DNA from: Campylobacterales bacterium | GTDB taxonomy: Bacteria; Campylobacterota; Campylobacteria; Campylobacterales; Nitratiruptoraceae | Assembly: GCA_027082175.1 (NCBI GenBank) | Contig: JALWIX010000075.1 | Span: 1 to 36,569 of the forward strand | DNA length: 36,569 nt | Reading direction: 5' to 3' | In this document: piece by piece, positions 6,734-35,459 of the stretch | Layout: the number at the start of each line of letters is the position of its first letter | Numbering within the stretch: position 1 is the stretch's first letter | Made by a program: the position numbers and the translations under genes | Notes under the pieces: generated by a model | Told to the model about the DNA's origin: nothing | The model's database searches: none | Seen by the model: only the letters and a program-made list of their open reading frames with translations

Positions 6734-7381
6734 ATGAAAATTGTAATATTAGAAGATGAATTTGAATTAAGCTATGCTATAAAATTGTTACTTGAATCAA
6801 ATGGACATCAAGTATATAATTTTCATACCATAGATCAATTTACTGAACAGATTGAATCTATAAGGCCTATAGATCTTATAATATTAGATATATCTTTGCC
6901 GGATGGAAATACTTTAAAAATGTTAAAATCTTTTCCACATATTGTGCAAGATAGTAAACTTTTGGTTATATCAGGGCATACGGAAATAGAAAATATTAAA
7001 TCATCTTTTGAACTTGGAGCTGAAGATTTTATAAAAAAACCTTTCAATCCTGAGGAGCTTCTTTTAAGAATCAATCGTATATTCAACTTGCTTCAAAAAA
7101 ATATTCAACGCTTCGCAGATATTTTTTACTACGATTGGAATGCTAAAATGCTTTATAACTCCCATACTCCTATAGTTTTAAGCCGAACCGAAGTAGAACT
7201 TTTGGAACTTCTTCTACGAAATAAAGGTAGATTTTTGTCTCCTGAGACTATAGCTGAGTATATTTGGAAAGAGAGTGTTTCAAAAAATACCGTTGCGGCT
7301 TTAGTAAATAGATTAAGAAAAAAACTTAAAAAATCCAATATTATAGTCTCAAAACGAGAAATAGGATACGCCATATTATAA
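6734..7381 (+). CDS. OmpR-family response regulator
   Basis: The protein has 215 residues. The receiver domain (1-115) has the acidic pair E7/D8, phospho-acceptor D52 in LIILDISLPDG, the conserved S80 and K102 in IKKPFNPEE, so all switch residues are intact. The C-terminal half is a winged-helix DNA-binding domain (LSRTEVELLELLLRNKGRFLS at about 148-168, then NTVAALVNRLRKKL and a final GYAIL hairpin). It is a cytoplasmic two-component transcription factor. No kinase is adjacent. The nearest is the FecR-fused kinase at 8803, beyond the OmpA gene and a terminator, which makes it a candidate partner. Targets may include the OmpA gene 65 bases downstream and the exopolysaccharide genes. Confidence 0.93.
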   Translation: MKIVILEDEFELSYAIKLLLESNGHQVYNFHTIDQFTEQIESIRPIDLIILDISLPDGNTLKMLKSFPHIVQDSKLLVISGHTEIENIKSSFELGAEDFIKKPFNPEELLLRINRIFNLLQKNIQRFADIFYYDWNAKMLYNSHTPIVLSRTEVELLELLLRNKGRFLSPETIAEYIWKESVSKNTVAALVNRLRKKLKKSNIIVSKREIGYAIL

Positions 7382-7446: not shown

Positions 7447-8685
7447 ATGAAAAAAGTGATAATGTTTGCAGTTGTTGCGCAAATTGTATGCGGTAATGCG
7501 TTTGCGAAAGAGAATAATTATGAGGTTCAAGCATTAGGTTCCGTAGAATTTACGGATAACAAAACTGCTTTGGAAGACTCTTTTAAAACGTTTGGCATCA
7601 GAGCCAATAAAAGATTTTCTAATGAGTGGTTGGCAGGTGTTGAATATTCGAAAACTAATGATGCAGAATTTGAAAATCTAAATCTTAAAACCGATATAAA
7701 TAGGTTTTTTATAAATGCGTTTTACGAATTCGATAAGGATCAAGATTATGTTCCATATCTTATCGGAGGATTTGGATATCAAGATGTAGATAACGAGTTA
7801 AATAGTTTTGAAAGCGGTTTAATCGCTCAAGCCGGCATAGGTTTTAAAACAGATATAACTCAACATCTACAATTTTTATTGGAAGGTAAATTTCTTAGAG
7901 ATTTTGAAAATGCCGCCAACGATTTCATAATAAGCGCCGGTTTGTCAATACCTTTTGGATATGAGTCAAAACCCGCACCAAAACCTAGCGATAGTGATAA
8001 TGACGGGATAATAGATAGTGAGGATCAATGTCCTAATACGCCTCCTAGAGTAAAAGTGGGTCCTAACGGATGTCCTCCAGATAGCGATAAAGACGGAGTG
8101 TACGATTATGAAGATAGATGTCCCGCTACTCCGGAGGGAGTTAAAGTCGATAACGATGGATGTTGTTTAGATAGCGATAATGACGGCGTTGCTGATTTTA
8201 AAGATAAGTGTCCCGAAACTCCAAAAGGAGCAAAAGTCGATAACGATGGATGTTGTTTAGATAGCGATAATGACGGTGTTGCTGATTTTAAAGATATGTG
8301 TTTGGATACTCCAGAAGGTTTTAAAGTCGATGATAAAGGTTGTCCTATAACTTATAATTTTTTGATAAATTTTGATACAAACAGCGCAAAAATCAAGTCT
8401 GAATATATGCCTAAAATAGAAAAATTTGCTAAGTTTATGAAGGAGCATCCTTCTTATAAAGCGGAGATACAAGGTCATACCGATAGTATAGGCTCGGATG
8501 AATATAACAATATTTTGTCTTTTAAACGAGCCAAATCAGTATATGATATGTTGATAAAATTTGGAGTGGAAGCAGATAGACTTACGTATGTAGGTTATGG
8601 TGAAGAAAAACCTATTGCAAGTAACGATACTGAAAGCGGTAGAGCTAAAAATAGAAGAGTAGAAGCGCATCTTTTTACAAAATAG
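7447..8685 (+). CDS. OmpA-family outer-membrane protein with thrombospondin type-3 repeats
   Basis: The protein has 412 residues. A signal peptide ends in GNAFA. Residues of about 25-175 form an OmpX/OmpA-like beta-barrel. Residues of about 180-300 hold four calcium-binding TSP3-type repeats (DSDNDGxxDxxDxCPxTP). Residues of about 300-412 are the OmpA peptidoglycan-binding domain, with FLINFDTNSAKI, GHTDSIGSDEYN, LSFKRA and GRAKNRRVE. It should anchor the outer membrane to the cell wall through diaminopimelate. Two repeats are almost identical in DNA and carry an unusual Cys-Cys pair (GCCLDSDNDG) where CP-x is usual. A very strong ribosome site (GGAGGAG) suggests high expression. A rho-independent terminator follows. 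Confidence 0.93.
   Translation: MKKVIMFAVVAQIVCGNAFAKENNYEVQALGSVEFTDNKTALEDSFKTFGIRANKRFSNEWLAGVEYSKTNDAEFENLNLKTDINRFFINAFYEFDKDQDYVPYLIGGFGYQDVDNELNSFESGLIAQAGIGFKTDITQHLQFLLEGKFLRDFENAANDFIISAGLSIPFGYESKPAPKPSDSDNDGIIDSEDQCPNTPPRVKVGPNGCPPDSDKDGVYDYEDRCPATPEGVKVDNDGCCLDSDNDGVADFKDKCPETPKGAKVDNDGCCLDSDNDGVADFKDMCLDTPEGFKVDDKGCPITYNFLINFDTNSAKIKSEYMPKIEKFAKFMKEHPSYKAEIQGHTDSIGSDEYNNILSFKRAKSVYDMLIKFGVEADRLTYVGYGEEKPIASNDTESGRAKNRRVEAHLFTK
8143..8301 (+). repeat. 90-base tandem duplication in the OmpA-like gene
   Basis: The segments 8143-8211 and 8233-8301 are identical except at two bases, with a period of 90 bases (30 residues). They encode two TSP3 repeats. The high identity points to a recent in-frame duplication, so repeat number may vary between strains. 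Confidence 0.85.
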
Positions 8686-8693
8686 TAAAAATC

Positions 8694-8735
8694 AAAGATG
8701 GCGGTTAAGTTTTTTAACCGCATCTTTATTAAATT
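8694..8735 (+). terminator. Rho-independent terminator after the OmpA-like gene
   Basis: The arms 8694-8708 and 8714-8727 pair over 14 base pairs (AAAGATG-CGGTTAA against TTAACCGCATCTTT) with one bulged G at 8701 and a 5-base loop. An A/T-rich tail follows. It lies 9 bases after the stop codon and separates the OmpA gene from the exopolysaccharide operon. Confidence 0.8.
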
Positions 8736-8802
8736 TTTTATAAATACTTAAAAAAAATCTTAACTTCCCGATAATGAGTATAAATATCTATAAGGTAATA
8801 TC

Positions 8803-10698
8803 GTGCTGAAAAAAACTCAATCTTTTGCCAGCGCTTTTTATCACGACATTAAAAATAAACTCGGAACTATACGTTTTAGCTTAAGCCTACTTATAAACAA
8901 TGTGATTGAAGATCGGTTAGAAAAAGAGAAACTTCTAAAAAATGCGTTATTATCCGTAGAGAAAACAATAGATATGCTTCAAGATTTTATAGAGTTGCAA
9001 CGTTTTAAACAAAATAGGAGATTAAAACAGGAGACTATTAATTTAATAGAGCTTTTTAATGAGATAAAAGATGAGCTTGAGCCTGATTTACTGAGTAAAA
9101 ATATCAAGCTTTTTATCTTTAGCGATTTACAAGAGGCTGTTGTTAAAAGCAATAAGCTTTGGTTAAAAAAGGCTTTTTTTAATCTAGTCCATAATGCGGT
9201 GAAATATAACAAAACCGAAGGCAAAGTAACTATACACATACATTATTATAAGAACGGCTGGTTAATAAAGATTGAGGATACGGGAAAGGGCCTTGACGAT
9301 GATGAAGCAAAAAAGATTTTTGAAAAATATTTTAGCACTTCCCAAAAAGAATCGGGAACAGGCTTAGGGCTGACTATGACTAAACGAGTGATCGAAAACT
9401 TTGGCGGAAAATTGGAATTTAAAAGTAAGCCGGAAGTTGGAACGACTTTTTACGTATATCTTCCAAAGATTTCGAAACAGATAAAAATAAAACGTCTATC
9501 CGCAGCTTTAACTCTTTTTTTTGCAATAACTCTTTTTAGTTTCGATTATTACTACTGTTTGATACCTCAAAATGCCGATATTAGAAAGTCAAATGAACAG
9601 ACTGTTATACGACTAGAAAATGGTTTAATAGCTCGCTTAAATAATAAAGACATATATAAAGTTTCAGCGTATAAAAATCTACTTAATACAAAGACAAGAA
9701 CGGAGATATTCTTAGATAAAGCCGATCTTTATCTAACGACCGCCTCAAATCCGGTAACGGTTTATACTAAAAAAAGCGCTTGGCAAAATCTTGGAACCGA
9801 ATTTGAGACGGTCGTTGATGAGAAAGATACTTCCGTTAGCGTATATAAAGGCGCGGTAGCTTCAAAAGATTTAAAGGTAAAACAAAATGAAGGAGTAATC
9901 TACACTCAAAAAGGTTTTATAAAGAGTCCATTGCCAAAAGCGGTTGAAGGTCTTAGAATAAATAGAGATAAAGAGGGCGTTATTACTCTTATCTGGATTA
10001 GTCCTTATAAAAGTTTTAGAGTGATAGCAAGTAGAGATAAATTTTTTGCATTGCCCGGTAGAGTTATTTCTAGTTCAAAAAAAGAGGTTAGATTTAACTC
10101 TTTGGATGACGGAATATGGTACTTTTTGGTTCAAGCCGAAGAGAAAAAACTTTTTGGTATGCCAAAGAGAACAAAAATATTGTCTCTTACAAACTACTTG
10201 AAAGCTAAAAAAGCCTTTGAAGAGAATGATTTGCTGCTTGCAACAGTTTTTATCAAAAAGAGTATTTCAACAATCAACGAAGTCGACTCAAGGCCATATA
10301 CTCTATATGGAGAGATATTTTATAAACAAAAGATGTATTTAAAGGCGTTAAAATTTTTTCAAAAGGCTATTGAAATTGGCGATAAAGACGAAGATCATTT
10401 TTGGAAAGTTAAAGCACTATATCGATTGAAGAAGTATAAAGAGGCAATTAAAAGTGCAAACCATCTACTCTTATCTACAAAGTATAAAAACTCGTCAAAA
10501 CTTTATATAGTATTGGCAAAAAGCTATTTGGAGTTAAAGGATATTAAGAATGCGGAAAAATATTTGTGGAGAGTTTTAGAAAACAACCCAAAAGATAAAG
10601 TTGCCCTAGATTTAATGCTTAGATTACAAAAACAAAAAGGGGATAAATTTTTAATAAAAACTTTTGAAGAATTATTAAGGGATGATTATGACAATTGA
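8803..10698 (+). CDS. Histidine kinase fused to periplasmic FecR-like and TPR domains
   Basis: The protein has 631 residues from a GTG with AAGG upstream. The order of parts is unusual. A cytoplasmic kinase comes first, with phospho-acceptor H14 in FYHDIKNKLG, the N box around N127/N131 (NLVHNAVKYN), the G1 box DTGKG (159-163) and the G2 box GTGLGL (185-190). One membrane segment follows (about 232-254). The rest is predicted periplasmic: a FecR-like domain (about 295-360, with AWQNLGTEFETVVDEKDTSV), an Fn3-like segment (about 385-455) and TPR repeats (about 497-605). There is no N-terminal sensor, so the periplasmic C-terminal part probably senses. The gene opens the exopolysaccharide operon and overlaps the next gene by 11 bases. 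Its response regulator may be the one at 6734. Signal and partner are inference; the domain calls come from visible motifs. Confidence 0.85.
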   Translation: MLKKTQSFASAFYHDIKNKLGTIRFSLSLLINNVIEDRLEKEKLLKNALLSVEKTIDMLQDFIELQRFKQNRRLKQETINLIELFNEIKDELEPDLLSKNIKLFIFSDLQEAVVKSNKLWLKKAFFNLVHNAVKYNKTEGKVTIHIHYYKNGWLIKIEDTGKGLDDDEAKKIFEKYFSTSQKESGTGLGLTMTKRVIENFGGKLEFKSKPEVGTTFYVYLPKISKQIKIKRLSAALTLFFAITLFSFDYYYCLIPQNADIRKSNEQTVIRLENGLIARLNNKDIYKVSAYKNLLNTKTRTEIFLDKADLYLTTASNPVTVYTKKSAWQNLGTEFETVVDEKDTSVSVYKGAVASKDLKVKQNEGVIYTQKGFIKSPLPKAVEGLRINRDKEGVITLIWISPYKSFRVIASRDKFFALPGRVISSSKKEVRFNSLDDGIWYFLVQAEEKKLFGMPKRTKILSLTNYLKAKKAFEENDLLLATVFIKKSISTINEVDSRPYTLYGEIFYKQKMYLKALKFFQKAIEIGDKDEDHFWKVKALYRLKKYKEAIKSANHLLLSTKYKNSSKLYIVLAKSYLELKDIKNAEKYLWRVLENNPKDKVALDLMLRLQKQKGDKFLIKTFEELLRDDYDN

Positions 10699-12085
10699 GA
10701 ATGCAATAAAAAAATCGGAACTTATTTTAACAGAAGGTGAAAACAAAAGCGGTAAATTAACCTTTGCTCTGTTTGCTACGGCAAATATTTTTTCCGACCG
10801 TAGCTTAGTTATGTTTTCATCTTTTCCAAAATCTTTGATGTTAAAAAGATTAAGCGCTATTGCGGATTTGGGAGATAAAAAAGTCGTTAATATCATAAAT
10901 TCGATGAAAATCCTATGTTTAAAAGAGAATTTCAAAGAGCTAAAAAGAAGATTTGGATATAAATTTATGATAGAGGATATAAAAAGGGTTATCGAAAAAG
11001 ATAGCTGTAAAACACTACTTTTTCATAGACTTGATCTTTTTTTTGAAATTCAAGAGAGAGATGATGCGGAGCAGTTTATAGAGGAGCTTATTGAGGTTAA
11101 AGAGTTGTACGATATAAGGCTTTTAATAACTTCATCAGCTCCCAATAACCCAAACAACTTTATTAATGAGATTTTAGAAAATTATACCGATATGAATCTT
11201 TATATAGAAAAAGAGAATCGTATTGAGATAAAAGTTCAAAGTTCAATTTTTCCCGTACATCATTTAAGATATCTGTTTCAATTAGAAAACAAAACTCTAG
11301 AACTAAAACCTTTAAAAGATAATAAAACAAATCTCGTTACACAAGAAACTCAAGCAGAAAAACCTTTAAAAAAGATTTTGCTCATTTCGCAAGATAAGGA
11401 ACTTATAAATTTACATAGATTTTTGTTTGAACGAAAGGGCTATTCTTTTGAAACTGCTTCAACGCTTTCAGAAACTATCCAAAAAATACTTAAGGGACCG
11501 GATCTAATCATTTACAATCCGCCTGATGAGAGTTACGATCTAGAGGTTTGCACTATCGTAAAAAACAACAATTTAAAATCTAAACTTATTTACATAGTAA
11601 ACAAAGATTATGTTAGGCAAAGCGATAAAATGAATGCGGTTAATGCCGGTTGTTACGAGATATATTCTAAAAATTTTATATTTGAAGAGTATATTTTAAC
11701 ATTGGAGAGAATTATACAAAACCATTTTTATACTACTTTAATACAACAACTCCCGTCTCAAAAAGAGACTATTAAAAGTATAAGACATTTTTGCAATATA
11801 ATCGACGGTTTTTCGCACAATAGAATCTACGCCAGCATAATCTCGGCAAAAACTAATATTCCCAAAGAGATTCTGTTTTCAAAAATAAGAGAGAAAGATA
11901 TAATGTTTTATGATGAGAATATAGTTATATTTTGTTTGATAAGTCTCAGAAAAGAGAGAGCCAAAACGGTAATAGACAAAATGAGAGCTATTACTGACGA
12001 TACTAAAGAGTATTTTTTTAAAATAGGGCATATAATCGATACAACGATGTGGAAAGAACATAAAGAGGAGATATGTGAAAAATGA
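10688..12085 (+). CDS. Degenerate NTPase-receiver-GGDEF protein, probable c-di-GMP receptor (BcsE/PelD-like role)
   Basis: The protein has 465 residues from the second ATG (10688), which sits 6 bases after AAGGG. The first ATG (10682) abuts the ribosome site. Residues 1-190 look like a RecA/KaiC-type NTPase fold with a Walker-A-like GENKSGKLT (17-25) and a Walker-B-like TLLFHRLD ending at D116. Residues 227-344 look like a receiver whose phospho-Asp is replaced by N277 (DLIIYNPPD). Residues 350-465 look like a GGDEF fold with no GGDEF signature. They keep R401-E-K-D404, the RxxD inhibitory c-di-GMP site, at the expected place. The same order (NTPase-like, REC-like, GGDEF-like) occurs in BcsE of cellulose synthesis. 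A cytoplasmic role activating the synthase on binding c-di-GMP is inferred. Its stop overlaps the porin gene start as ATGA. Confidence 0.68.
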   Translation: MTIENAIKKSELILTEGENKSGKLTFALFATANIFSDRSLVMFSSFPKSLMLKRLSAIADLGDKKVVNIINSMKILCLKENFKELKRRFGYKFMIEDIKRVIEKDSCKTLLFHRLDLFFEIQERDDAEQFIEELIEVKELYDIRLLITSSAPNNPNNFINEILENYTDMNLYIEKENRIEIKVQSSIFPVHHLRYLFQLENKTLELKPLKDNKTNLVTQETQAEKPLKKILLISQDKELINLHRFLFERKGYSFETASTLSETIQKILKGPDLIIYNPPDESYDLEVCTIVKNNNLKSKLIYIVNKDYVRQSDKMNAVNAGCYEIYSKNFIFEEYILTLERIIQNHFYTTLIQQLPSQKETIKSIRHFCNIIDGFSHNRIYASIISAKTNIPKEILFSKIREKDIMFYDENIVIFCLISLRKERAKTVIDKMRAITDDTKEYFFKIGHIIDTTMWKEHKEEICEK

Positions 12086-15000
12086 AAAAGATATTAACTT
12101 TGATTTTTTTTATATTTTTTACTATTGGCTATGCTTTTGATTTAGATGTAACGACATTGATGAAAAAAGTATCAAATAATCCTAATGATATAGAAAACAG
12201 ATTGGTTTTAGCAAGATATTTTTTAGAAAAAAATCAGTATGAAGAGGCAAAAAAATTGTTGAAAGAGATTTTAAAAGTTGAGCCTACCAACAAATATGCA
12301 AAAAGTATGTTACAAAAGATAAATGCGGCCGAATATATATCTTCGTTTATACAAAATTATAAAAATTTAGATAATTTGGTTGAAGAGTTATACCGAAAAA
12401 GCAGATATAAAGAGCTTTTGAATTTTTATAAAAATTTTAATCTTATTTATACTTCAAAAGAGAATCTATTTAAAGACTCCTCTTATATTAAAATAGCCAG
12501 AGTTGCTATGTGGGAAGGAGAATATAATCTATCTTTAAAAGTTTTAGAAAAGGTAAAAGATAAAAAAAGTTTGGACTTTTTTGAAATAAAAGCGGCAGAC
12601 TGCTACTATTTATCTAAACTGAAATGCGCAAAAAGGTACTATCAATATCTTTTTCAAGCTACGGGAGATTTGGAGTATGGTAAAAAACTTTTAGATATCT
12701 ATATAGCCGACGGTGAAATTGAGCGGGCAAAAAAGATGCTTTACTCTTTAAAGCGGATAAAAAAGAGCGGTTTTATCTTAAAGTACCAAGAGAAAATCGA
12801 TAAACTTGAAAGAAAGTATTTGCAAAATTTATGGGATAAATATAAAAAAGATCCATCATTTGAAAATATGCAAACTTTGGTTTATGTACTCTATAACGAG
12901 GATCCGCAAAAAGCTATCTCTCTTATAAAGGGATACATAAAAGAGAATCCTACCGATAAAAACGCAAAACTGCTGTTAGCAAAGATACTCTCTTGGAGAG
13001 GCGATAATAAAGAGGCTATGGAACTTTTAGCGAAATTTCAAGAGAGTGACGACAATAGAGCCAAACTTCTATTTGGCAAGATACTTGCTTGGCAGGGAGA
13101 TTACGATAGAGCCGTACATTTTCTATCTGATGTTTACGCTAACGGAACTGAAAAACAAAAATATGAAGCAAAAAAGATGTTAGGATATGTCTATATGTGG
13201 AAAGATCAAAAAGATAAAGCGAAAGAGATTTTTGAAGCTCTACTAAAAGATAATCCTAATGATGAAGAGGTTAAAGAGTCTTTATTGGTTATTAAGGGTG
13301 AGGTTAAACCACTTATAAAAAAGTATGAGAAAGAGTTGGCTAAAGATCCAACAAATGAGACAATTATCTTAAAATTAGCCGATTACTATTATATGATAAA
13401 AGAGTATGAAAAAGCGGCAAGCTATTATGAAAAGTATCTAAGACTGCATCCGGAAAAAGTAGAGATATATAAAACTCTCGGCGATATTTACTTGGAGCTA
13501 AAAGAGTATTATAAAGGGTTTGGCTACTGGGAGTATTACGCTAACTACTTAAATACGAAAGAGTCATTTTATCAACTAGCTCAACGATACTACTGGAATG
13601 GATTTAATAATGAAGCGCTGTTAGTTTTAAACGAACTTTTAAAAAAGTATCCAGATTATAAAGAAGCCGCTCTATTAAAGGCGAAGATATTGAAAATCAA
13701 CCCAAGATTTGTAACTTCAAAAAGTTCCGCTACTATCGATGAATACTTTCAAGATAAAAGCAAAAAGATTTTGGCAATGGCAGATAGGGTTTACTTTGCA
13801 AATCTTTATGAGAGCGCGGCTAGCTACTATAAAAGTTATCTAACGCTTGAACCGGAAGATTACGAGGCAAGAGAGAAGTATGCTTACGCGTTGGAGTTTT
13901 CTAAAGATTACGCAAAAGCGGCAGGAGAGTTTTATCTACTTTTTTGGATTAAAAAGACTCCCTTGATAGAGTATCATTATGCGTATAATCTGCAAAAAAT
14001 GGGAGATATAAAAAAAGCCGAAAAGATTTATAAGAAACTTATAAAAGAGGTTCCAAAACCGGTTCCCCCTTTTATTAAAAAATTTTTAGAGGAGTGGAAA
14101 AAAGCTTGGGAGTCGATGGATATAAAAGAGTATATAAATTTTTACGATGATAAAATTGCAAAAAATACGGCTTGGAGATTGAGAAAAGAGGCTCTTTTTA
14201 GAAAAAATGGATTTGTTTCCGTATCTATTTACGATCCGCTTTTAGTTTATAAAGAGGGAAACCTATATGAAGTTAAGTTTTATCAAGTGTATGCTTCAAA
14301 GATTAAAAAAGATGAAGGGTATAAAACTCTGCTCATTAAGTGTGAGGATGATCGTTGCAAAATATTAAAAGAGAGTTGGAAGCCGGGAAAATATACTCCG
14401 TACAAAAAAGATAGCAGTTTGGAGTTTTACATCAAAGAGCGCCTAAATGAGATTGAAAAGAGGAAAAAAAAAGGCGATAAAAAAAAGAATGTAAAAGGTA
14501 AAAGTATAGAGTTGGATAAAGGTGTTAAAAAAAATCCTAAAGAGGAGGAAAAAGTATTAAACATCAATCATTTGGAACCGGTAAAATTAACTAAGAAAAA
14601 AGTCGTACCCAAAACGTATGTAAAAAAAGAGAAAATTATAGATAGTTATGATTGGGAGATAGAGGGCGGTTTAGACTATTTTCACGACAATCAAGATATA
14701 GATATGTTAACCCATAGTTTAAAGATTTCAAAAAATATAAACAATACTTTTTGGATTTACGCCTTTTTAAAGGGGTATAATCTAACTGATAACGATGAGA
14801 GTTGTAGCGGCAACTACTTTGGATTTGGTTTAAAAAAAGAGAACTATTTTGGAGATGTTGTTTTTGATAAAAGCGGCTCAAACAGTAATATCGGGTGGAG
14901 TTTGGGCTATAATACTCTTTTTTTGGGAAATAGTTTAACTTTTAAACTAGATAGAAAAAATCTTGTCTATTCAAGAAGAACTTGTTGTTCAAATGAGCTT

Positions 15001-15483
15001 ATGAGAGTAAAGGGTGAAGTAAGCGGTTATAGACAGTTAAGTCAAAAGAGAGGGTTATGGTGGTCTTTGGCTTATGAAGATATTGAAGATGATAATAGGG
15101 TTTTAACTCCCCAATTTGATTATGAGTTTTATGATAAGAGTTTTGGTAAGTTAGACTCTATATACTATCTATCCGGATGGTATCAATTTAACGACAAAAC
15201 TACTTCTTGTTATTACTCACCTGATAAAATAGACAACAATCTAATCGGCATAAAAGCCTATTATCCGGTAAATAAAAAGTTAACTCTTCAAGCAAAAGGG
15301 GCGTTGGGTTACAGTTTTTGGGAAGAGACTTTGCTTTATAAAGCCGGATTTTGGTTAAAGAGTGATTCAACTATAAAATATTTTGCACAGATAGGTTGCG
15401 ATTTTAGCAATAGCTCTACCTCTGGTACACAAACGGGATATCAGAGTTTTGAGTGTGGTTTACAGGTAAGGAAGACGTGGTGA
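12082..15483 (+). CDS. TPR-rich outer-membrane exopolysaccharide export protein (PelB/PgaA/BcsC-like)
   Basis: The protein has 1133 residues. A signal peptide (MKKILTLIFFIFFTIGYA) leads into many TPR repeats (about 20-665; for example AKKLLKEILKVEPTN and AASYYEKYLRLHPE). An NTF2-like domain follows at about 671-770 (WKKAWESMDIKEYINFYDD), the type found at the C-terminus of Csd6. Next come a lysine-rich linker (about 780-850) and a C-terminal beta-barrel (about 853-1133) ending in an aromatic residue (RKTW), as outer-membrane proteins do. Length and plan resemble PelB (about 1190) more than PgaA. It would guide polymer through the periplasm and across the outer membrane. The NTF2-like insert is not usual in known exporters. 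ATGA and GTGA overlaps on both sides imply translational coupling. Confidence 0.83.
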   Translation: MKKILTLIFFIFFTIGYAFDLDVTTLMKKVSNNPNDIENRLVLARYFLEKNQYEEAKKLLKEILKVEPTNKYAKSMLQKINAAEYISSFIQNYKNLDNLVEELYRKSRYKELLNFYKNFNLIYTSKENLFKDSSYIKIARVAMWEGEYNLSLKVLEKVKDKKSLDFFEIKAADCYYLSKLKCAKRYYQYLFQATGDLEYGKKLLDIYIADGEIERAKKMLYSLKRIKKSGFILKYQEKIDKLERKYLQNLWDKYKKDPSFENMQTLVYVLYNEDPQKAISLIKGYIKENPTDKNAKLLLAKILSWRGDNKEAMELLAKFQESDDNRAKLLFGKILAWQGDYDRAVHFLSDVYANGTEKQKYEAKKMLGYVYMWKDQKDKAKEIFEALLKDNPNDEEVKESLLVIKGEVKPLIKKYEKELAKDPTNETIILKLADYYYMIKEYEKAASYYEKYLRLHPEKVEIYKTLGDIYLELKEYYKGFGYWEYYANYLNTKESFYQLAQRYYWNGFNNEALLVLNELLKKYPDYKEAALLKAKILKINPRFVTSKSSATIDEYFQDKSKKILAMADRVYFANLYESAASYYKSYLTLEPEDYEAREKYAYALEFSKDYAKAAGEFYLLFWIKKTPLIEYHYAYNLQKMGDIKKAEKIYKKLIKEVPKPVPPFIKKFLEEWKKAWESMDIKEYINFYDDKIAKNTAWRLRKEALFRKNGFVSVSIYDPLLVYKEGNLYEVKFYQVYASKIKKDEGYKTLLIKCEDDRCKILKESWKPGKYTPYKKDSSLEFYIKERLNEIEKRKKKGDKKKNVKGKSIELDKGVKKNPKEEEKVLNINHLEPVKLTKKKVVPKTYVKKEKIIDSYDWEIEGGLDYFHDNQDIDMLTHSLKISKNINNTFWIYAFLKGYNLTDNDESCSGNYFGFGLKKENYFGDVVFDKSGSNSNIGWSLGYNTLFLGNSLTFKLDRKNLVYSRRTCCSNELMRVKGEVSGYRQLSQKRGLWWSLAYEDIEDDNRVLTPQFDYEFYDKSFGKLDSIYYLSGWYQFNDKTTSCYYSPDKIDNNLIGIKAYYPVNKKLTLQAKGALGYSFWEETLLYKAGFWLKSDSTIKYFAQIGCDFSNSSTSGTQTGYQSFECGLQVRKTW

Positions 15484-16793
15484 TAAAGGGTTTTATAGTA
15501 ATCTTTTTAAGTCTCTTTTTAATTTTGGCTCTTGGTAGTTTACTATATTTTTATTATAACTATTTTTATCATATACAAAATATTTTTGTTCAGATAGGCG
15601 TTGGCATTGTTCTGTTTTTTACCACGCTAGTAATAATGAGATATATGTTATTGCTTTTTTTCTCGATATTAAAGACTATCCAAAAGAGTGCCGATGAAGA
15701 GGATAGACCAAAAAAGGGCGAACTTAAAAGGGTTACTATAATAGTGCCGGCTTTTAACGAGGAGGTTGTGATAGAAAAGTCGTTGCAGTCGTTAATTGAG
15801 CAGACATACCCAAATTTGGAGATATTGGTTGTTGATGACGGATCAAAAGATAGAACTTATGTTAAAGCTAAGAAGTTAGAGTTTACAAAGAGTAACAGAA
15901 GTTTGAAGGTTTATAGGAAGAAAAACGGAGGCAAAGCGAATGCTATAAATTTCGGGATAGAGCATGCAAGCGGAGAATTGATAATGGTAGTAGATGCGGA
16001 TTCAAAACTTGATAAAAACGCCGTGTGGTTGATGGCTGCCTATTTTAACGATGAAGAGATTGCGGCTGTTGCGGGATCGGTTTATGTTAGCAATCAAAAC
16101 AGTCTTCTTACCAAACTTCAAGCCCTTGAGTATATAGAAGGGCTTAACATGGTAAGAAACGGACAGGCTTTTTTGCAGCTTGTCAATATTATCCCGGGTC
16201 CTATAGGAATGTTTCGAAAGAGCGCACTGATAGAAGTTGGGATGTATGATAACGATACTTTTGCGGAAGATTGCGATGTGACTCTTAAACTGATTGCAAA
16301 TGGTTATAAGATAGAGTTTGAATCAGATGCGATATCTTATACCGAAGCGCCAGAACATCTATTTGATCTTATAAAACAGCGCTACAGATGGACGAGAGGT
16401 ATATTGCAATCCATTAGAAAACATAAGAAACTGCTTTGGCACTTTAAAAAATCTCCCTCAGTTTCATTCGTACTTTGGTATATGCTTTTTGAAGCGGTTT
16501 TTTGGCCATTTATGGATATTTGGGCAAATATTTTTTTAATAAATATGGCTTTAATATCCGGTGTAAGTATGCTAATCTTTTTTTGGTGGGCAATGTTTAC
16601 TATTTTAGATATGGCAGGGGCATTGTACTGTGTGCTTATAACCGGTGAAAAGCTCTCTTTAGTTTTTTATGCTATTTTTTATCGGCTCTTTTTTATTACG
16701 ATTATAAATATTTCAAAGATTTTGGCGACTGTTGAGGAGTGGTTCGGTATAGAGATGAGCTGGGGAAAACTTGAAAGAAAGGGAAATTTATGA
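15480..16793 (+). CDS. Processive GT2 polysaccharide synthase (PgaC/HasA/NodC-like)
   Basis: The protein has 437 residues from the GTG at 15480, which overlaps the previous TGA as GTGA and has AAGGA 7 bases upstream. Two N-terminal membrane segments (about 4-24 and 38-62) precede the GT2 domain, and three or four more lie in 325-420. Catalytic motifs are complete: D119-D120-G, D172-A-D174, acceptor-side E263-D264 and Q300-R-Y-R-W304. The last is the QxxRW signature of processive beta-glycan synthases. No PilZ domain is fused, so c-di-GMP control would have to come through the separate degenerate GGDEF protein. The nearby deacetylase points to an N-acetylhexosamine polymer, but the donor sugar is inferred. 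It acts in the inner membrane. Confidence 0.9.
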   Translation: MIKGFIVIFLSLFLILALGSLLYFYYNYFYHIQNIFVQIGVGIVLFFTTLVIMRYMLLLFFSILKTIQKSADEEDRPKKGELKRVTIIVPAFNEEVVIEKSLQSLIEQTYPNLEILVVDDGSKDRTYVKAKKLEFTKSNRSLKVYRKKNGGKANAINFGIEHASGELIMVVDADSKLDKNAVWLMAAYFNDEEIAAVAGSVYVSNQNSLLTKLQALEYIEGLNMVRNGQAFLQLVNIIPGPIGMFRKSALIEVGMYDNDTFAEDCDVTLKLIANGYKIEFESDAISYTEAPEHLFDLIKQRYRWTRGILQSIRKHKKLLWHFKKSPSVSFVLWYMLFEAVFWPFMDIWANIFLINMALISGVSMLIFFWWAMFTILDMAGALYCVLITGEKLSLVFYAIFYRLFFITIINISKILATVEEWFGIEMSWGKLERKGNL

Positions 16794-16972
16794 ATCTACT
16801 CGGTTTTTTGTCCATACTGATTTTAATTATCACGATAATGACGTTAGTTTTTGGCGTTATCGCCTATTTTCTATATAAAGCCAGAGAAAAAAAGAAAAAA
16901 GCTTTATCCAAAGGGATTACATACGAGGAGGCACTTCGGCAGGTAGGCGATGAATATGTATATTTTGAGTAG
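16790..16972 (+). CDS. Small single-pass membrane protein, possible synthase accessory subunit
   Basis: The protein has 60 residues. One long hydrophobic segment (about 4-29) is followed by a basic stretch (KAREKKKKALSK) and a short acidic tail (YEEALRQVGDEYVYFE). The ATG overlaps the synthase stop (ATGA), so it is made together with the synthase. Its position recalls PgaD, the small partner of PgaC. PgaD has two membrane helices and is longer, so this is an analogy and not a family assignment. Confidence 0.65.
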   Translation: MNLLGFLSILILIITIMTLVFGVIAYFLYKAREKKKKALSKGITYEEALRQVGDEYVYFE

Positions 16973-16982
16973 GGAGCAAAAA

Positions 16983-18782
16983 GTGTATAACCGATATGGT
17001 CCATTGGTTTTTTTTTATATATTTTTGTTTATTGTAATATCCGGCACTATTTTTTACTATCTTCTTCCAAATACGAAAATACCGTCAAATATTTTGTTTT
17101 CAACTGAGAAAAACTCAAATATTTATATTTTGGAATCTGATGAGACTCTTAAGTTTTTGCAAGAGACGGGCTATGATAAAAATGAATATTTTGAACGTTT
17201 GAGCGAGTTTAAGAGACGTCTAGAAAAGATAGGAATCAAATACGATGTGATAAAAGAGTCCGATATAGATAGTTTACCGGCAACGAGTACGATTTTAGCT
17301 TTAGATATATTTGCCTTGTCAAAAGAGAGTAGCGGGGCAATACTTAACTTTTTAAAAAGAGGGGGAAATCTACTTTTTAACTACCATTTTGCCTATTTTC
17401 AAAACAAAAAGATCTATCAAGGCAGTAAATTGATAGAGGCTATAACCGGATTGAGTTATATTAAAAACGTAAAAAACAAAAAAGGGCTATTTTTTATACC
17501 AAAAATTTTATCGCCTATAATGTTATCTAACGAAAATGCTAAAAGATACGACTTGATACTATACGATTCTATACCTCTTTTTGAATCAAAAGAGAATACT
17601 CCAGATGCGATACTAACTAACTGGGCTGTTACATCTACGCCTATGTTCGACAATAAAAAGGTTCCTATGAAACAAGCTGGTATAGTTTGGCATGGATTGT
17701 ACGGCAAAGGGAGTTGGATATACTTTAGTTTTCCGTTATACTCTTTTTTAGATATGCCGTTAAATGAATTTGAGTTATTGATGAAAAATATAATAAACTA
17801 TTTAAACGAGTCCGTTTCATTGGCAAAGTATCCATATCTAGATACTAAAAAGGCCGTGTTTATATCCGAAGACACCGAGTATAAATATGAAAATCTAAAA
17901 CGTTACGCTACTCTAGCTCAAAAATATGGCATCGATACTACTCTTTTTTGCGTGGCAAACTTGGCCGAGCAGTATTCGGATATAACTAAAGAAGTAGCCG
18001 CTTTTTCTCATATAGAGATTGGCTCCCACAGCTACTCTCATACTAAAATATTAGGGGAAAACGAAAAAAAAGTGGAAAAAGAGATAGCCTATTCTAAAAA
18101 AGTTTTAGAAGATATTACCGGCGAGAAAGTTTACGGGTTTAGACCGCCTCGAGAAGAGATTGATGAAAAGATGATCTTTTGGTTAAAAGAATCGGGTTAT
18201 TTATATACTATGGAGCGCTCAAAAGATTATCTACTACCAAAAGAGGAGATTTTGGGTTTGATAACTTTGCCTAGACACGGTACGGACGATTATATATATC
18301 TTATAAATCTTGATTGGGATAAAGATGCTATCTTAAATCAGATTATTTATGAGACGGAGCTTTTAACCTCTTTTAACGCCCTTTATACATTAAGTATCCA
18401 CACTCATTTGTTAAGTTATAAAAACAATATCGATATAGTTGAAAAATTTTTCAAATATTTACAAACAAGAAAAGATATTAAACCGTTAAAGGGTAGAGAC
18501 TTGGCGATAAGGGCTAAACAGTTAAAAAATATTGATCTTTTTTATAAAAAAAATCTAAAGAATCTATTTGTAAACATAGAAAATAGAAACGATACTTCCG
18601 TAAAAAATTTTACGTTTAGACTCTATTGGCACAATCTTAAAAAGATTGGTAAAATCAGGTCTGAAATACTAAATATTAAAGTAGAAGAGATTAAAAGAGA
18701 TAAAAAAGAGAAGTTTAGTGATATAAGAGTCAAAGAACTAAAACCAAATTCAGTGATAACTTTAATAATCCCTTATGAGTAA
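16983..18782 (+). CDS. Membrane-anchored NodB-type polysaccharide deacetylase
   Basis: The protein has 599 residues. The GTG at 16983 is chosen because AGGGAG lies 6 bases before it and it directly follows the previous stop. ATGs at 16950 and 16956 lie inside the preceding gene. An N-terminal membrane anchor (about 8-29) is followed by a class-I-amidotransferase-like fold (about 45-275, with LNFLKRGGNLLFNYHFA) and then a NodB deacetylase domain (about 285-510). NodB motifs: motif 1 is ISED (E296-D297) where TFDD is usual; motif 2 is H349-S-Y-S-H353; motif 3 is RPPR (387-390); motif 5 is LSIHTH. The metal triad Asp-His-His is intact, but Glu replaces the usual catalytic Asp. It would remove acetyl groups from the nascent polymer in the periplasm, as PgaB and PelA do. 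A beta-strand-rich tail (about 530-599) ends the protein. Confidence 0.83.
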   Translation: MYNRYGPLVFFYIFLFIVISGTIFYYLLPNTKIPSNILFSTEKNSNIYILESDETLKFLQETGYDKNEYFERLSEFKRRLEKIGIKYDVIKESDIDSLPATSTILALDIFALSKESSGAILNFLKRGGNLLFNYHFAYFQNKKIYQGSKLIEAITGLSYIKNVKNKKGLFFIPKILSPIMLSNENAKRYDLILYDSIPLFESKENTPDAILTNWAVTSTPMFDNKKVPMKQAGIVWHGLYGKGSWIYFSFPLYSFLDMPLNEFELLMKNIINYLNESVSLAKYPYLDTKKAVFISEDTEYKYENLKRYATLAQKYGIDTTLFCVANLAEQYSDITKEVAAFSHIEIGSHSYSHTKILGENEKKVEKEIAYSKKVLEDITGEKVYGFRPPREEIDEKMIFWLKESGYLYTMERSKDYLLPKEEILGLITLPRHGTDDYIYLINLDWDKDAILNQIIYETELLTSFNALYTLSIHTHLLSYKNNIDIVEKFFKYLQTRKDIKPLKGRDLAIRAKQLKNIDLFYKKNLKNLFVNIENRNDTSVKNFTFRLYWHNLKKIGKIRSEILNIKVEEIKRDKKEKFSDIRVKELKPNSVITLIIPYE

Positions 18783-18787
18783 AATCG

Positions 18788-19783
18788 ATGAGAATATTCG
18801 TATATTTAACGCTAATATCTTTAAGCTTAGTTGCTTCGGAGTTTGTTTTGGGAGTAGGCGGCTTTAAAGTATGCGAAAATAGATATGGAGCCTCTTATTT
18901 CAAACAGTGCTCTATAGATAAAAGAAAAAATATTGCCACTCTTTTAAAAAAGGAGTTACCGAACGTTAACGCCGTATCTATGTGGATAACAAGAGACTGG
19001 AAAGAGGAGTGGTACTCTGAAAAAGAGATAAACGATAAATTGGTTCAAAAAGGTTATGTGCCTATTTTTATCTTCTACTGGTTTGCGGATGATATTTCTC
19101 CATCCTTTGTAAAAAAACATAAAAAAGGGTACTTTCAAACTTTGAAAAGATTTTCAAAATATCTCCAAAAGATTAAAGGTAAAAAGATAGTTATCCTAAA
19201 TCCGGAGTTTAATGAAAACGGTATAGTAAATAGTAGGGAGTTTGACCTTTTACAGATAAACTCCATTTTTTTGATAAAAAAAGAGAACCCGGATGCCTTG
19301 GTTGGTATATGTTTAGGCGATTTTGGAGACTATTCGGTTATTTGGGATGAAAAAAATTGGAAGTTGTATAAACCTTCCATGTTATACAGTGCCAAAATAG
19401 CCGATTTTATAGCGTTTCAAGAGATGAGAGCGTTAAATAAAAACTCTACAGAAGAGATTTTAGATGCTCCTTTAAGAGCGTTGGCTTTTGCCACATATCT
19501 ACATAAAACCTATAAAAAACCGACCTTTTTGGCCTATTTGGCGATTTCTTCCTACGGGAAAAACGGTGAAAAGATCCAAAAAAAGGTTGTTAGGGATTTT
19601 AAAAAACTTTTGCCGCTTTTTAGAGCCAGCGCTGACTTAATGGGGGTAAATCTTTTTCATTTTATTGATTTTCCTAAGCATAATGGTTATTTTGGCAAAG
19701 CTGAAAAGTTTTTCGGTATCAAAAAGGCAAACGGAAAACCAAAACCGGCTTTTTATGAGTTTAAGAGGATTAAGATAGATTGA
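18788..19783 (+). CDS. Secreted glycoside-hydrolase-like TIM-barrel protein
   Basis: The protein has 331 residues. A signal peptide (MRIFVYLTLISLSLVAS) predicts export. I do not recognise the family with certainty. The layout suggests a TIM-barrel glycoside hydrolase: strands such as AVSMWIT, VPIFIFYW, KIVILNPEFNENG and ADFIAFQEMRAL end in acidic residues. E140 and E212 are spaced like the acid/base and nucleophile pair of clan GH-A enzymes. As the last gene of the exopolysaccharide operon, 5 bases after the deacetylase, it would fit the periplasmic hydrolase found in most synthase-dependent systems (BcsZ, PelA, PgaB). Its stop lies 2 bases from the convergent csd4 stop, with no visible terminator between them. 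Confidence 0.68.
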   Translation: MRIFVYLTLISLSLVASEFVLGVGGFKVCENRYGASYFKQCSIDKRKNIATLLKKELPNVNAVSMWITRDWKEEWYSEKEINDKLVQKGYVPIFIFYWFADDISPSFVKKHKKGYFQTLKRFSKYLQKIKGKKIVILNPEFNENGIVNSREFDLLQINSIFLIKKENPDALVGICLGDFGDYSVIWDEKNWKLYKPSMLYSAKIADFIAFQEMRALNKNSTEEILDAPLRALAFATYLHKTYKKPTFLAYLAISSYGKNGEKIQKKVVRDFKKLLPLFRASADLMGVNLFHFIDFPKHNGYFGKAEKFFGIKKANGKPKPAFYEFKRIKID

Positions 19784-19785
19784 TA

Positions 19786-21072
19786 CTATTCAAATGAGAC
19801 TATAACAGAGCCGCAAAAGCTCTTGTCTTTATAAAACTCAACTCTATATTTTTTATGCAGTTTATCTATAGAGTATCTCTCTTGACACTCTTTTTTTTCT
19901 ATCTCAATACCGTTTTCGTTTTTAAAACCTTTTTTGCTGTAACCTATAACGTTTACCCTTATATCTTTGCTAGCTAAAACTTTAAAACTTTTTTTAACGT
20001 TGATAATGGAGGGAATCGGTATATATTTTTTATTTTCGTCAACTACAAAAGTGACATTTTTGATTTTGCAATCAGGTTTAAAATATTGGGGATATAAGGT
20101 GGTTAGCTTTTTATAGGCTCTATAAATAGCGTAGTTTTTTCCCACTTTTATTACCGTTACTAACGGGTCATTGCTTTCGTAACGAATGTTTTTTTCCGTT
20201 ATAGGGAAAAATCCAACACTTTTTTTAATATTTTTCAGTGGTAAAACACTATTTTTATTTATTACTATATTTCCTAAGTCGTTATTTAGCAGCTCATTTA
20301 TTGTTTTTACATCTAGTTCAAATTTTCTTTCAAACTCAATCTCTAAAATCTTCATAAACTCTTCAATAGCGTTTAACTGATAGTAGATTTTTGTTGCTAA
20401 ATCTTTTATATGTTTGCTTGTTTCTATAGCAAGAGCCGGTTTATTGTGAGTGATGGCGAAATATGTCAAAGAGAGTCTCATCTGCTCATCTTTAAATTTT
20501 GTTTTTGTGTTTTTAATGTGAAAAGCGTGATGCCTCTTCTTTAATCTTTTATTTAGGGCGTTATTAACTTTTTGAGCGATTTCGTTTAGATTACCAAATC
20601 TGCAACCGTCTATCTCTTTTTGATCGATTATACAGGCTTGTCCCCACGCGTATGGATTAAATATGGTATTTTCCCATTTTTCCCTATAATATCCTCTGCC
20701 ATCGTGAAGGTTTAAAATAAGATCAACATTTTTACTGAGTATTATCTCTTTTATATCTTTGACTATTTTAAAGTCTGGATCACTTTCTTTAATCGCAGCA
20801 AACTTTCGGTTCATATCACCGTATATACCGCGCCTAAATTTAACAATCGAATCAAAATTAAGATTTGGAACTATCCAAAGAGCCCCTTTTTTTATATCGT
20901 AATACTTTACTAAAAAAGAGGCGGCAAAGTAGCCTCCGGGTTCATCTCCGTGAACGCCTCCGATAACTAAGAGTGTATTGCTTGGATTGAGTGATTCTTT
21001 TTTGTAAAGTTTAAAATGGAGTTTTGCTCCCCAAACCGAAGAGAAGATAAAAAGTAGTAGCAAAATTCTCAC
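19786..21072 (-). CDS. Csd4/Pgp1-type peptidoglycan D,L-carboxypeptidase (M14-like)
   Basis: The protein has 428 residues from the GTG at 21072, which follows a GAGAG ribosome site. An ATG at 21099 would add nine charged residues ahead of the signal peptide (MRILLLLFIFSSVWG) and lies inside the upstream gene. Csd4 of Helicobacter and Pgp1 of Campylobacter trim peptidoglycan tripeptides to dipeptides, which is needed for helical shape. Zinc-site residues are H41 and E44 (GGVHGDEPGG) and H123 (NLHDG). NR at 88-89 is the substrate-binding pair and E217 (LAIETSK) the catalytic Glu. From memory, the H. pylori Csd4 residues are Q46, E49, H128 and E222, a constant offset of five. Here the first ligand is the ordinary His rather than Gln. 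It is co-transcribed with the Csd6-type gene, whose stop is only 2 bases upstream. Confidence 0.9.
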   Translation of the reverse strand: MRILLLLFIFSSVWGAKLHFKLYKKESLNPSNTLLVIGGVHGDEPGGYFAASFLVKYYDIKKGALWIVPNLNFDSIVKFRRGIYGDMNRKFAAIKESDPDFKIVKDIKEIILSKNVDLILNLHDGRGYYREKWENTIFNPYAWGQACIIDQKEIDGCRFGNLNEIAQKVNNALNKRLKKRHHAFHIKNTKTKFKDEQMRLSLTYFAITHNKPALAIETSKHIKDLATKIYYQLNAIEEFMKILEIEFERKFELDVKTINELLNNDLGNIVINKNSVLPLKNIKKSVGFFPITEKNIRYESNDPLVTVIKVGKNYAIYRAYKKLTTLYPQYFKPDCKIKNVTFVVDENKKYIPIPSIINVKKSFKVLASKDIRVNVIGYSKKGFKNENGIEIEKKECQERYSIDKLHKKYRVEFYKDKSFCGSVIVSFE

Positions 21073-21074
21073 GA

Positions 21075-22040
21075 CTATCTCTCTACCAGAATTTTCCATC
21101 CATCCGTAGTCTTTACGACATAAAGCTCTTTATCACCTTCAAATCTATAACTTTTTGAGCGATATTTTTCATGGAAGTTTACTCTATATATCTTTTCGTT
21201 ATCTGGCGTTTGATAGGGAATGATATTGATATCTGTAAAAACTATTTCGATTTTTTGTCCTTTCTTTGAGGAAAAAATATTTTTTTTCATTTCGGAAAAC
21301 TCTTTGAGGTTTTTGCCGTCAAATCTGATAAATTTTGGGTGGTAAAATTGTAGGTAACTGTTTATGTCGCTATTTTTCCAAGCGTATCTCCATTTATATA
21401 GCATAGATAAAATCTGAACAATATCCTCTTTATTTGCGATGTCTGGTTTATCTTCGTTGATGAGTAGGATAGTTTTTTTAAGTTCTAGTATGCTTTCAAG
21501 TTTTTTAAGCTCTTCGTTTTCCATTGCTATGCATCCTTTAGTACCAGGTTCTCTTTCGCAATTTTCAGGCATACCGTGTATCCAGATCCCATATCCGTTT
21601 TTGCCTCTTATCTTGTCGTAAAGATTTGGATACGTGGTTACAAAGGCAAAAGGACCGTAGTAGTCGTCAAGATTTGTTAGTTTTCTAATGAGCCTATATA
21701 CGCCTACCGGTGTGCGCAGATCGCCCTCTTTTACCTTATCGCCGCTGTTTTTGCCTACAATCACTTTTATAGTTTTGATATTTTTAAGTTCTTTGTTGTC
21801 TATTTTGTATATATCGAGTTTTTTTCTTTTTTTATTGCAAACAAGTATATAGTCCATATTGCTATAATATCCAAAACGTACATCTTTGTCGTCTATAACT
21901 TTTTGCCAATATTGAAGCTTTTGCAGCTGCTTATCTAGCAAGTCTATAGCCGCTTCCGAGCCTTTTTCTCTATAAATGTCTATAATATTTGCAAAGATAA
22001 AAGAGGTAAAAAAGATAAAAAATAGAAAAAATTTTTTCAT
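21075..22040 (-). CDS. Csd6/Pgp2-type L,D-carboxypeptidase (YkuD fold plus NTF2-like domain)
   Basis: The protein has 321 residues, close to Csd6 and Pgp2. A signal peptide (about 1-17) predicts a periplasmic location. The YkuD domain (about 60-195) carries the catalytic pair H155 in IWIHGMP and C170 in GTKGCIAM. The C-terminal NTF2-like domain (about 205-320) begins MLYKWRYAWKNSDINSYLQFY. Family members remove the terminal D-Ala from tetrapeptides to give tripeptides, the substrate of the neighbouring Csd4-type enzyme. GGAGG lies 5 bases before the ATG. The two genes form a unit converging on the exopolysaccharide operon. Similar NTF2-like sequence occurs inside the exopolysaccharide porin at 12082. 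Confidence 0.92.
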   Translation of the reverse strand: MKKFFLFFIFFTSFIFANIIDIYREKGSEAAIDLLDKQLQKLQYWQKVIDDKDVRFGYYSNMDYILVCNKKRKKLDIYKIDNKELKNIKTIKVIVGKNSGDKVKEGDLRTPVGVYRLIRKLTNLDDYYGPFAFVTTYPNLYDKIRGKNGYGIWIHGMPENCEREPGTKGCIAMENEELKKLESILELKKTILLINEDKPDIANKEDIVQILSMLYKWRYAWKNSDINSYLQFYHPKFIRFDGKNLKEFSEMKKNIFSSKKGQKIEIVFTDINIIPYQTPDNEKIYRVNFHEKYRSKSYRFEGDKELYVVKTTDGWKILVER

Positions 22041-22209: not shown

Positions 22210-22986
22210 TTGAAAAGAAAACCTTTTACTATTTTTAAAGCTGTTGTAAAAGCTTTGGTTTTAAGAGAAGTCCAGACAAGATTTGGTTCGCAAAAGCTTG
22301 GCTATCTTTGGGCTATCATAGACCCGATGGCTATGATAGTGGTTTTTTCTTTTATAAAAACAATTATTTCTCATGCTTCTATGCCGGGTATAGACTATCC
22401 CGTTTTTTTAGCTACAAGTTTTTTGGCTTATAATCTGTTTAAAAACATATCTCTTCGCTCTATGGACGCTTTTGTGGCCAATAAGGGTCTTTTTGTTTAT
22501 AAACAGGTAAAACCTTTTGATACCCTAGTTTCAAGAGCTATAGTAGAATCGTTGATAATAGGAGTGGCAACTATAATTTTTATATGTATCGGGCTATATT
22601 TTGGTTTTGATATGGAAGTTAAAGATCTAAATATGGTAATACTAGGTTTTTTGTGGATTGGGATTTTTGGCTTTGGTTTGGGAGTTTTATTTGCAGTTAT
22701 TGGAACATTTTACGAAAACTTTAAAAAGATAATTAGCCTTATGTTTTTGCCTCTCTTTTTTCTTTCCGCTCTTTTTTATACTGTAGAGAATTTGCCGCCA
22801 ATTGCTAGAGATATAGTGCTTTTTAATCCCGTAGTTCATTTTATAGAGTTTATACACGGAAGTTTTTTCCCTGAACTGGATACAAATTACGTTGATTTTA
22901 CGTATATGGCGTTTTGGACTTTGATACCCTTTTTTCTAGGGCTTTGGCTCTATACAAAATCTGAGAGAAAGATAGTTATGTCATGA
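22210..22986 (+). CDS. kpsM: Capsule ABC transporter permease
   Basis: The protein has 258 residues from a TTG start; no nearer ATG precedes the conserved N-terminus (KRKPFTIFKAVVKALVLREVQTRFG). It has an amphipathic N-terminus, the LGYLWAIIDPMAMIVVF segment typical of KpsM/ABC-2 polysaccharide permeases, and about six membrane helices. It forms the inner-membrane channel that exports lipid-linked capsular polysaccharide, paired with KpsT. The stop overlaps the kpsT start (ATGA). It is the first gene of the capsule locus and divergent from csd6. Confidence 0.95.
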   Translation: MKRKPFTIFKAVVKALVLREVQTRFGSQKLGYLWAIIDPMAMIVVFSFIKTIISHASMPGIDYPVFLATSFLAYNLFKNISLRSMDAFVANKGLFVYKQVKPFDTLVSRAIVESLIIGVATIIFICIGLYFGFDMEVKDLNMVILGFLWIGIFGFGLGVLFAVIGTFYENFKKIISLMFLPLFFLSALFYTVENLPPIARDIVLFNPVVHFIEFIHGSFFPELDTNYVDFTYMAFWTLIPFFLGLWLYTKSERKIVMS

Positions 22987-23645
22987 TAGTTTTGGAAAAC
23001 GCAACCAAATACTATAAAATGAAAAATGAGAAAAAATATATACTAAAAAATGTATCTTTAACTATACCTGGTGGTATCAACGTAGGTATCTTGGGAAGAA
23101 ACGGTGCCGGAAAGTCAACTCTTCTTAGGATGCTAGGGGGTATCGATTTTCCAAATTCGGGAAAGATATATTCAGATAAGAGATTTTCCTGGCCTATGGG
23201 GCTTGCTGGAGGGTTTCAAGGAAGCATGACAGGCAGACAAAATGTCAAATTTGTGTGCAGAATCTTTGGCAAAAGCCAAAAAGAGATAGATGAGGCGGTT
23301 GAGTTTGTAAAAGAGTTTAGCGAACTTGGAGAATATTTTGATATGCCGATAAAAACCTATTCAAGCGGTATGAGGTTACGCCTTAGTTTTGGTTTGAGCC
23401 TAGCTTTTGATTTTGACTATCTTTTGATAGATGAGACTTTGTCCGTAGGAGACAAACACTTTAAAGAGAAATCAAAAAAAGCTTTGAGGGAAAAGATTGA
23501 AAAAAGCAACGTACTTCTTGTTAGCCACGCTATGCCAATACTTAGAGAGCTTTGTGATGCTGGTATCGTGGTGCATGATGGACAGATAAAGTATTTTGAC
23601 AATATTGACGATGCTATAAAAGAGTACAACCAAATAAACAGGTAG
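22983..23645 (+). CDS. kpsT: Capsule ABC transporter ATP-binding protein
   Basis: The protein has 220 residues. Walker A is GRNGAGKST (38-46), the signature is YSSGM (126-130) and Walker B is LLIDE (147-151, catalytic E151), followed by SVGD and the switch His in VSHAM. This matches the short KpsT/Wzt-type ATPases, with no C-terminal carbohydrate-binding domain, as expected for KpsM partners. It powers capsule export at the inner membrane. It is coupled to kpsM by a 4-base overlap and lies 3 bases from kpsE. Confidence 0.95.
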   Translation: MIVLENATKYYKMKNEKKYILKNVSLTIPGGINVGILGRNGAGKSTLLRMLGGIDFPNSGKIYSDKRFSWPMGLAGGFQGSMTGRQNVKFVCRIFGKSQKEIDEAVEFVKEFSELGEYFDMPIKTYSSGMRLRLSFGLSLAFDFDYLLIDETLSVGDKHFKEKSKKALREKIEKSNVLLVSHAMPILRELCDAGIVVHDGQIKYFDNIDDAIKEYNQINR

Positions 23646-23648
23646 GAT

Positions 23649-24728: not shown

Positions 24729-24743
24729 TTTGGAGGAAAATAG

Positions 24744-26366: not shown

Positions 26367-26453
26367 TTTTGAAACAGATTTGAAACATTTTTTTATTACA
26401 ATTTTGTCTTTAAAAAGTTTAGAAAAATTCAAGTATAAAGGCTTCAATACCTA

Positions 26454-35449: not shown

Positions 35450-35459
35450 AAGGTAGTCT

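Follow-up and report, generated by a model that had tools for sequence, protein, structure and literature searches.

Five synthase-dependent exopolysaccharide (EPS) systems have been listed, those for cellulose, acetylated cellulose, PNAG, Pel, and alginate, and the parts that such systems encode in one operon are a synthase, a c-di-GMP receptor, periplasmic modification enzymes, and a TPR protein with an outer-membrane pore (PMC7112194). E. coli BcsE is treated as a receptor of the cellulose system (PMC8461298, PMC7439463). Its two RxxD motifs jointly bind intercalated dimeric c-di-GMP with an affinity of about 140 nM (PMC11470070), and the closest fold to its degenerate GGDEF domain is that of PelD (PMC7439463).

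We analyzed a window of 36,569 nucleotides from a Campylobacterales bacterium. It contains a locus with the parts of a synthase-dependent EPS system, recognized by sequence, fold, and synteny: a synthase (C), a putative receptor (D), modification enzymes (N and H), and a presumed exporter (B) whose pore is predicted. The locus is most likely a further kind of c-di-GMP-gated synthase-dependent EPS system and none of the five already listed (PMC7112194). Searches of an open-access library turned up no description of the gene set. A 2014 paper on the GIL domain and a 2015 review of cellulose operons reportedly describe bcsE as a gene of cellulose operons in Gamma- and Betaproteobacteria, and they may mention loci of this type.

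The seven-gene locus and its neighbors

A sequence-only reading of this DNA had described seven tightly packed genes between 8803 and 19783, and ORF calls placed all seven there, on the plus strand. As called, the joints in the order K-D-B-C-s60-N-H measure −17, −4, −31, −4, −23, and +5 nt, so that five of the six are overlaps. The ORF called for C runs from 15453 to 16793, but the start conserved in relatives is probably the GTG at 15480, which would make a GTGA overlap with the stop codon of B. A terminator-like hairpin at 8701-8721 (plus strand) separates the set from the OmpA-family gene on its upstream side, and K is preceded by a promoter-like site at 8748-8775 (plus strand); both come from a pattern scan in which neither promoter nor terminator patterns were more numerous than in shuffled sequence. 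No Rfam family matched anywhere in the window.

The domain make-up that had been claimed for K, B, C, and N was borne out by Pfam and NCBIfam. K (8803-10698) has HisKA/HATPase, FecR, and TPR domains. Its kinase motifs are kept, with the histidine in an FHDIKNKLG-type motif, and a single predicted transmembrane segment is followed by the FecR and TPR regions, an arrangement suggesting that the C-terminal part of the kinase is a periplasmic sensor. The OmpR-type response regulator encoded at 6734-7381 on the plus strand (Pfam Response_reg and Trans_reg_C), which the sequence-only reading had omitted, is its presumed partner; a regulator of this type adjoins K directly on its 5′ side in relatives.

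B (12082-15483) combines TPRs, a Cds6_C NTF2-like domain, and a barrel-like C-terminal region ending in a tryptophan, and we presume from this sequence that it is a TPR exporter through the outer membrane. An hmmsearch against the PDB found no solved relative of the barrel. B had been called a PelB-like TPR porin with an NTF2-like domain. The TPR and NTF2-like parts stand, but "PelB-like" is unspecific, as none of the exporter family models recognizes B; against the PgaA model, TIGR03939, it scored 35 bits, where the cut-off is 366.65. In three loci (L037, L043, and L044), the TPR-NTF2 part of B and its barrel-like part are encoded by separate genes.

C (15480-16793) proved to be the PgaC-like GT2 synthase that had been claimed, with GT2 motifs, QRYRW, and no PilZ domain. 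Its closest NCBIfam model is PgaC/IcaA, but it scored 202 bits against the PgaC equivalog TIGR03937 (cut-off, 422), and its identity to E. coli PgaC was 29% across 322 residues. The BcsA-type model CelA gave 78 bits (cut-off, 699). Searches of plasmid and E. coli collections found no close relative of C. The 60-residue membrane protein s60 (16790-16972) has a single transmembrane segment and keeps its position behind C in nearly all loci. The candidate identifications of s60 as a BcsF or PgaD homologue were unsupported; hhalign against PgaD gave an E value of 0.23.

N (16950-18782) is a membrane-anchored NodB/CE4 deacetylase (Polysacc_deac_1) with an extra N-terminal domain, and it matched no PgaB model in NCBIfam. 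Its NodB-type active-site residues are kept in all aligned sequences, and from these we infer that the polymer is N-acetylated. H (18788-19783), predicted to be secreted, fell below the cut-off of every Pfam and NCBIfam family, and its sequence had no significant match in the PDB, so that the fold search alone was informative. Its model is a confident TIM barrel (pLDDT, 90.4), for which Foldseek gave GH53 galactanases and clan-A enzymes, including PslG, as the nearest folds, the families matched being GH53, GH39, and GH10. The invariant residues E140 and E212 map to strands four and six of the barrel. No nucleophile is evident on the seventh strand, which makes catalysis uncertain. Viral contigs held no relative of H. 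The claim of a secreted hydrolase-like protein thus gains a glycoside-hydrolase-like TIM-barrel fold, but H is part of the set in some versions only.

The genes around the locus were also cataloged. An OmpA-family protein with thrombospondin-type-3 repeats is encoded at 7447-8685, between the response regulator gene and K; the one compared locus that shares it at this place is that of a near-identical congener. Downstream, a convergent pair on the minus strand (19786-22040) encodes an M99 carboxypeptidase of the Csd4-like cell-shape kind and a YkuD protein, which shares with B the internal Cds6_C NTF2-like domain of the exporter. In locus L022, too, the pair is found close to the operon. The rest of the window, 22210-36569, holds a second polysaccharide locus with an ABC-2 permease and ATPase (KpsM/KpsT-like), a chain-length-determinant-like protein, an SLBB exporter of the Wza/KpsD-like kind, several GT2 and GT4 glycosyltransferases, and sulfotransferase-like proteins.

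A BcsE-like protein beside a PgaC-like synthase

The only family match of D (10682-12085) in Pfam and NCBIfam was a weak one to a receiver domain, below cut-off, and a search of its own genome with the Pfam BcsE family, PF10995, did not find D. An AlphaFold model made with 24 sequences (pLDDT, 88.7), compared with PDB folds, gave a degenerate KaiC/RecA-like NTPase domain, a degenerate REC domain, and a degenerate GGDEF domain, in that order. All five top PDB matches of the model were E. coli BcsE chains, with E values of 1.6e-15 to 1.3e-12, and KaiC came next. By hhalign, D and BcsE were collinear over 379 columns with an E value of 0.0027, although the reported probability was just 11%. In this alignment, made with no structural input, R312xxD315 of D falls on R306ATD of BcsE and R403xxD406 falls on R415TGD, and a joint alignment repeated the superposition. 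Both motifs, the I-site R403xxD406 in the degenerate GGDEF domain and R312xxD315 in the degenerate REC domain, are invariant in 24 of 24 D proteins. Only eight positions are invariant across these sequences, and four of them are the R and D residues of the two RxxD motifs.

A second line of evidence came from loci outside the Campylobacterota. Pfam assigns the second gene upstream of C to CBP_BcsE in Undibacterium umbellatum (251 bits) and in a Gallionella MAG (249 bits; cut-off, 25), and phmmer found homologues of this betaproteobacterial BcsE upstream of the same synthase C in 26 loci of the betaproteobacterial type. The joint alignment showed that these proteins keep the I-site, while the second motif retains the R but not the D. 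The C profile detected no second GT2 near C in three loci (L068, L069, and L086), and so there is no BcsA nearby.

D is a distant BcsE, which we term BcsE-like rather than certified BcsE because PF10995 misses it. The BcsE-like control proposed in the sequence-only reading has therefore been strengthened by the fold, by the dual RxxD motif, and by the presence, at D's place in betaproteobacterial loci, of a true BcsE that PF10995 recognizes. The genome has 19 GGDEF-domain matches, from which it follows that c-di-GMP is made, and D is very likely its receptor, judging from the motifs and the model.

In four further loci, the D slot upstream of B and C is filled by Pfam-recognizable KaiC plus GGDEF proteins (L063:3830-5545, L079:5117-6802, L080:3270-4964, and L098:4539-6230), three of which also have a REC domain. 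These are possibly less degenerate relatives of BcsE. We suggest, tentatively, that BcsE may have originated outside cellulose synthesis, as the KaiC-REC-GGDEF switch of a non-cellulose EPS system spread over several phyla, and been recruited later by cellulose operons of the E. coli type; we regard this as a minority possibility.

Recurrence of the gene set across genomes

C was present in 14 of 100 related genomes, scattered within genera and including three of the five genomes of its own genus. D accompanied it in all 14 (one copy being cut at a contig end) and occurred in 3 of the 86 genomes without C, the other 83 lacking D. This co-occurrence gave a Fisher p value of 1.5e-14, calculated on related, nonindependent genomes with phylogeny ignored. 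In 13 other genomes, D, B, C, s60, and N lie together as far as the contigs extend; H was found in 7 and K in 5 of these 13 loci, one of which is that of the near-identical congener. In an evenly drawn sample of Campylobacterota, C was present in 11 of 397 genomes and 8 of 68 genera.

Searching genome contigs with a profile of aligned C sequences gave 80 loci. Among those of Campylobacterota (Nautiliaceae and Campylobacterales MAGs), some have the gene order D-B-C-s60-N and another subset has B-D-C-s60-N. Outside this phylum, C, s60, and usually N were found in Betaproteobacteria (Undibacterium, Noviherbaspirillum, Rhodoferax, and Gallionella), as well as in deltaproteobacterial and Myxococcota MAGs, Gemmatimonas, Calditrichota, and others, with the homology of N beyond Campylobacterota being weak in part. 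This distribution comes from uneven sampling of related genomes, and some MAG contigs may be misbinned. A case in point is L073, a Methylococcales-binned contig of 34% G+C with a full Campylobacterota-like operon, which may reflect horizontal transfer or misbinning.

Two findings had been named beforehand as refuting the sequence-only reading: that the genes fail to co-occur in other genomes, or that the locus has already been described. The set recurs in Campylobacterota and also across phyla, and the library searches gave no account of it, so the reading withstood both tests. Its core is the BcsE-like receptor, the exporter, the synthase, s60, and the deacetylase, and K, the response regulator, and H are accessories. 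The idea of a built-in sensor kinase was not upheld, since K belongs to some Campylobacterota versions and is missing from most of the core-bearing loci.

D-like proteins were also seen apart from the synthase. Family f7 gave six extra hits, spread over five genomes of which three lack C, and most of these hits covered only the C-terminal half. Those in L114 (8603-9403), L115, L116, L117, and L118 are mostly the degenerate REC-GGDEF half and lie distant from the synthase; the neighbors of the L114 gene encode a class-II DAHP synthase and the beta subunit of glycyl-tRNA synthetase.

A proposed mechanism and its alternatives

We are highly confident that the locus secretes an EPS. We consider it likely that, as a whole, it is a self-contained, c-di-GMP-gated, synthase-dependent machine making a partly deacetylated N-acetylhexosamine polymer. 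Taken singly, the identity of the product as such a polymer, predicted from the enzymes encoded, is probable rather than assured, and we lean to the same degree toward a product not identical with PNAG. As c-di-GMP rose, D would bind it, probably as a dimer between the two RxxD motifs as in E. coli BcsE, and would activate the inner-membrane synthase C, perhaps docking via s60. C would polymerize UDP-N-acetylhexosamine and extrude the chain, from which membrane-anchored, periplasm-facing N would strip some acetyl groups; H might trim or release chains, and B would lead the polymer along its TPR scaffold and out through the barrel. Transcriptional control may be added in this genome by K and the response regulator, with K sensing the periplasm by its FecR and TPR regions. 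The operon has no BcsQ- or BcsR-like partner, and so the mode of action of E. coli BcsE cannot be transferred whole.

Because PgaC/IcaA is the best model for C (202 bits) and the roles encoded are those of pgaABCD, the locus could instead be a very diverged PNAG operon making ordinary poly-beta-1,6-GlcNAc, with the functions of PgaB divided between N and H, B standing for PgaA, s60 for PgaD, and only the receptor new. We think this distinctly less probable than a separate system, though it deserves serious consideration: C reaches 202 of the 422 bits set for PgaC at 29% identity to the E. coli protein, B reaches 35 of 367 for PgaA, and N and s60 match no PgaB or PgaD model, the E value of s60 against PgaD being 0.23. 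A cellulose-like or Pel-like polymer, with the BcsE-like protein marking a cellulose origin, would fit the fact that BcsE is known from cellulose systems and that Pel too has a degenerate-GGDEF receptor and a TPR porin. It is improbable, however, for an operon that lacks BcsA/PilZ, BcsB, BcsZ, PelF, and PelG, whose synthase scores 78 of 699 bits with BcsA models, and whose NodB deacetylase implies N-acetyl groups.

The KpsM/KpsT-like, chain-length-like, and Wza/KpsD-like genes and glycosyltransferases close by, from 22210 onwards, raise the question of whether the block is an auxiliary of that ABC-transporter capsule locus, one that would modify or retain capsule and make no polymer of its own. 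This is the least credible reading, as the block carries its own synthase and exporter, two convergent genes lie between the loci, and the D-to-N block has other surroundings in relatives. Two described clusters were also rejected as the identity of the locus: the sfz/sfb stalk clusters, which differ in gene content, and Rubrivivax EmbRS/psc1, an unrelated cluster of the Wzx/Wzy type.

If the reading of a separate c-di-GMP-gated system is correct, it adds a further phylum-spanning EPS system with a BcsE-type switch, shared by Campylobacterota of vents and by Betaproteobacteria of fresh water, cultured Undibacterium among the latter. It would offer a tractable route to how BcsE activates a synthase without PilZ and BcsRQ, and a candidate matrix polymer for chemolithoautotroph biofilms.

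The sequence-only reading had held that the combination is unlike bcs, pel, pga, and alg, and indeed the D-B-C-s60-N set matches none of them. D resembles E. coli BcsE in its order of degenerate NTPase, REC, and GGDEF domains, its collinear profile, and both RxxD motifs, but it is too diverged for PF10995, its partner is a PgaC-like synthase without PilZ, and its operon lacks BcsRQ, BcsB, and BcsG. With PNAG systems (pgaABCD, hms, and ica), the locus shares the roles of a TPR-barrel exporter, a deacetylase and a TIM-barrel hydrolase, a GT2 synthase, and a small membrane protein; here, however, all PNAG models are missed or fall far under cut-off, the deacetylase and hydrolase are separate genes rather than a fused PgaB, and a separate BcsE-type receptor takes the place of the PgaC-PgaD site. 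Pel likewise has a degenerate-GGDEF receptor with RxxD (PelD) and a TPR-barrel exporter (PelB), but the seven genes include no PelF (GT4), PelG, or PelE, and D is predicted to be soluble, with REC and NTPase-like domains and without the GAF domain and transmembrane segments of PelD. The sfz/sfb stalk clusters of iron oxidizers are also candidate c-di-GMP-linked GT2 EPS loci of environmental bacteria, but they have a BcsB-like Sfz1 and an EpsE-GT2 fusion, Sfz2, and no BcsE, NodB, or TPR exporter has been reported for them (PMC8250860).
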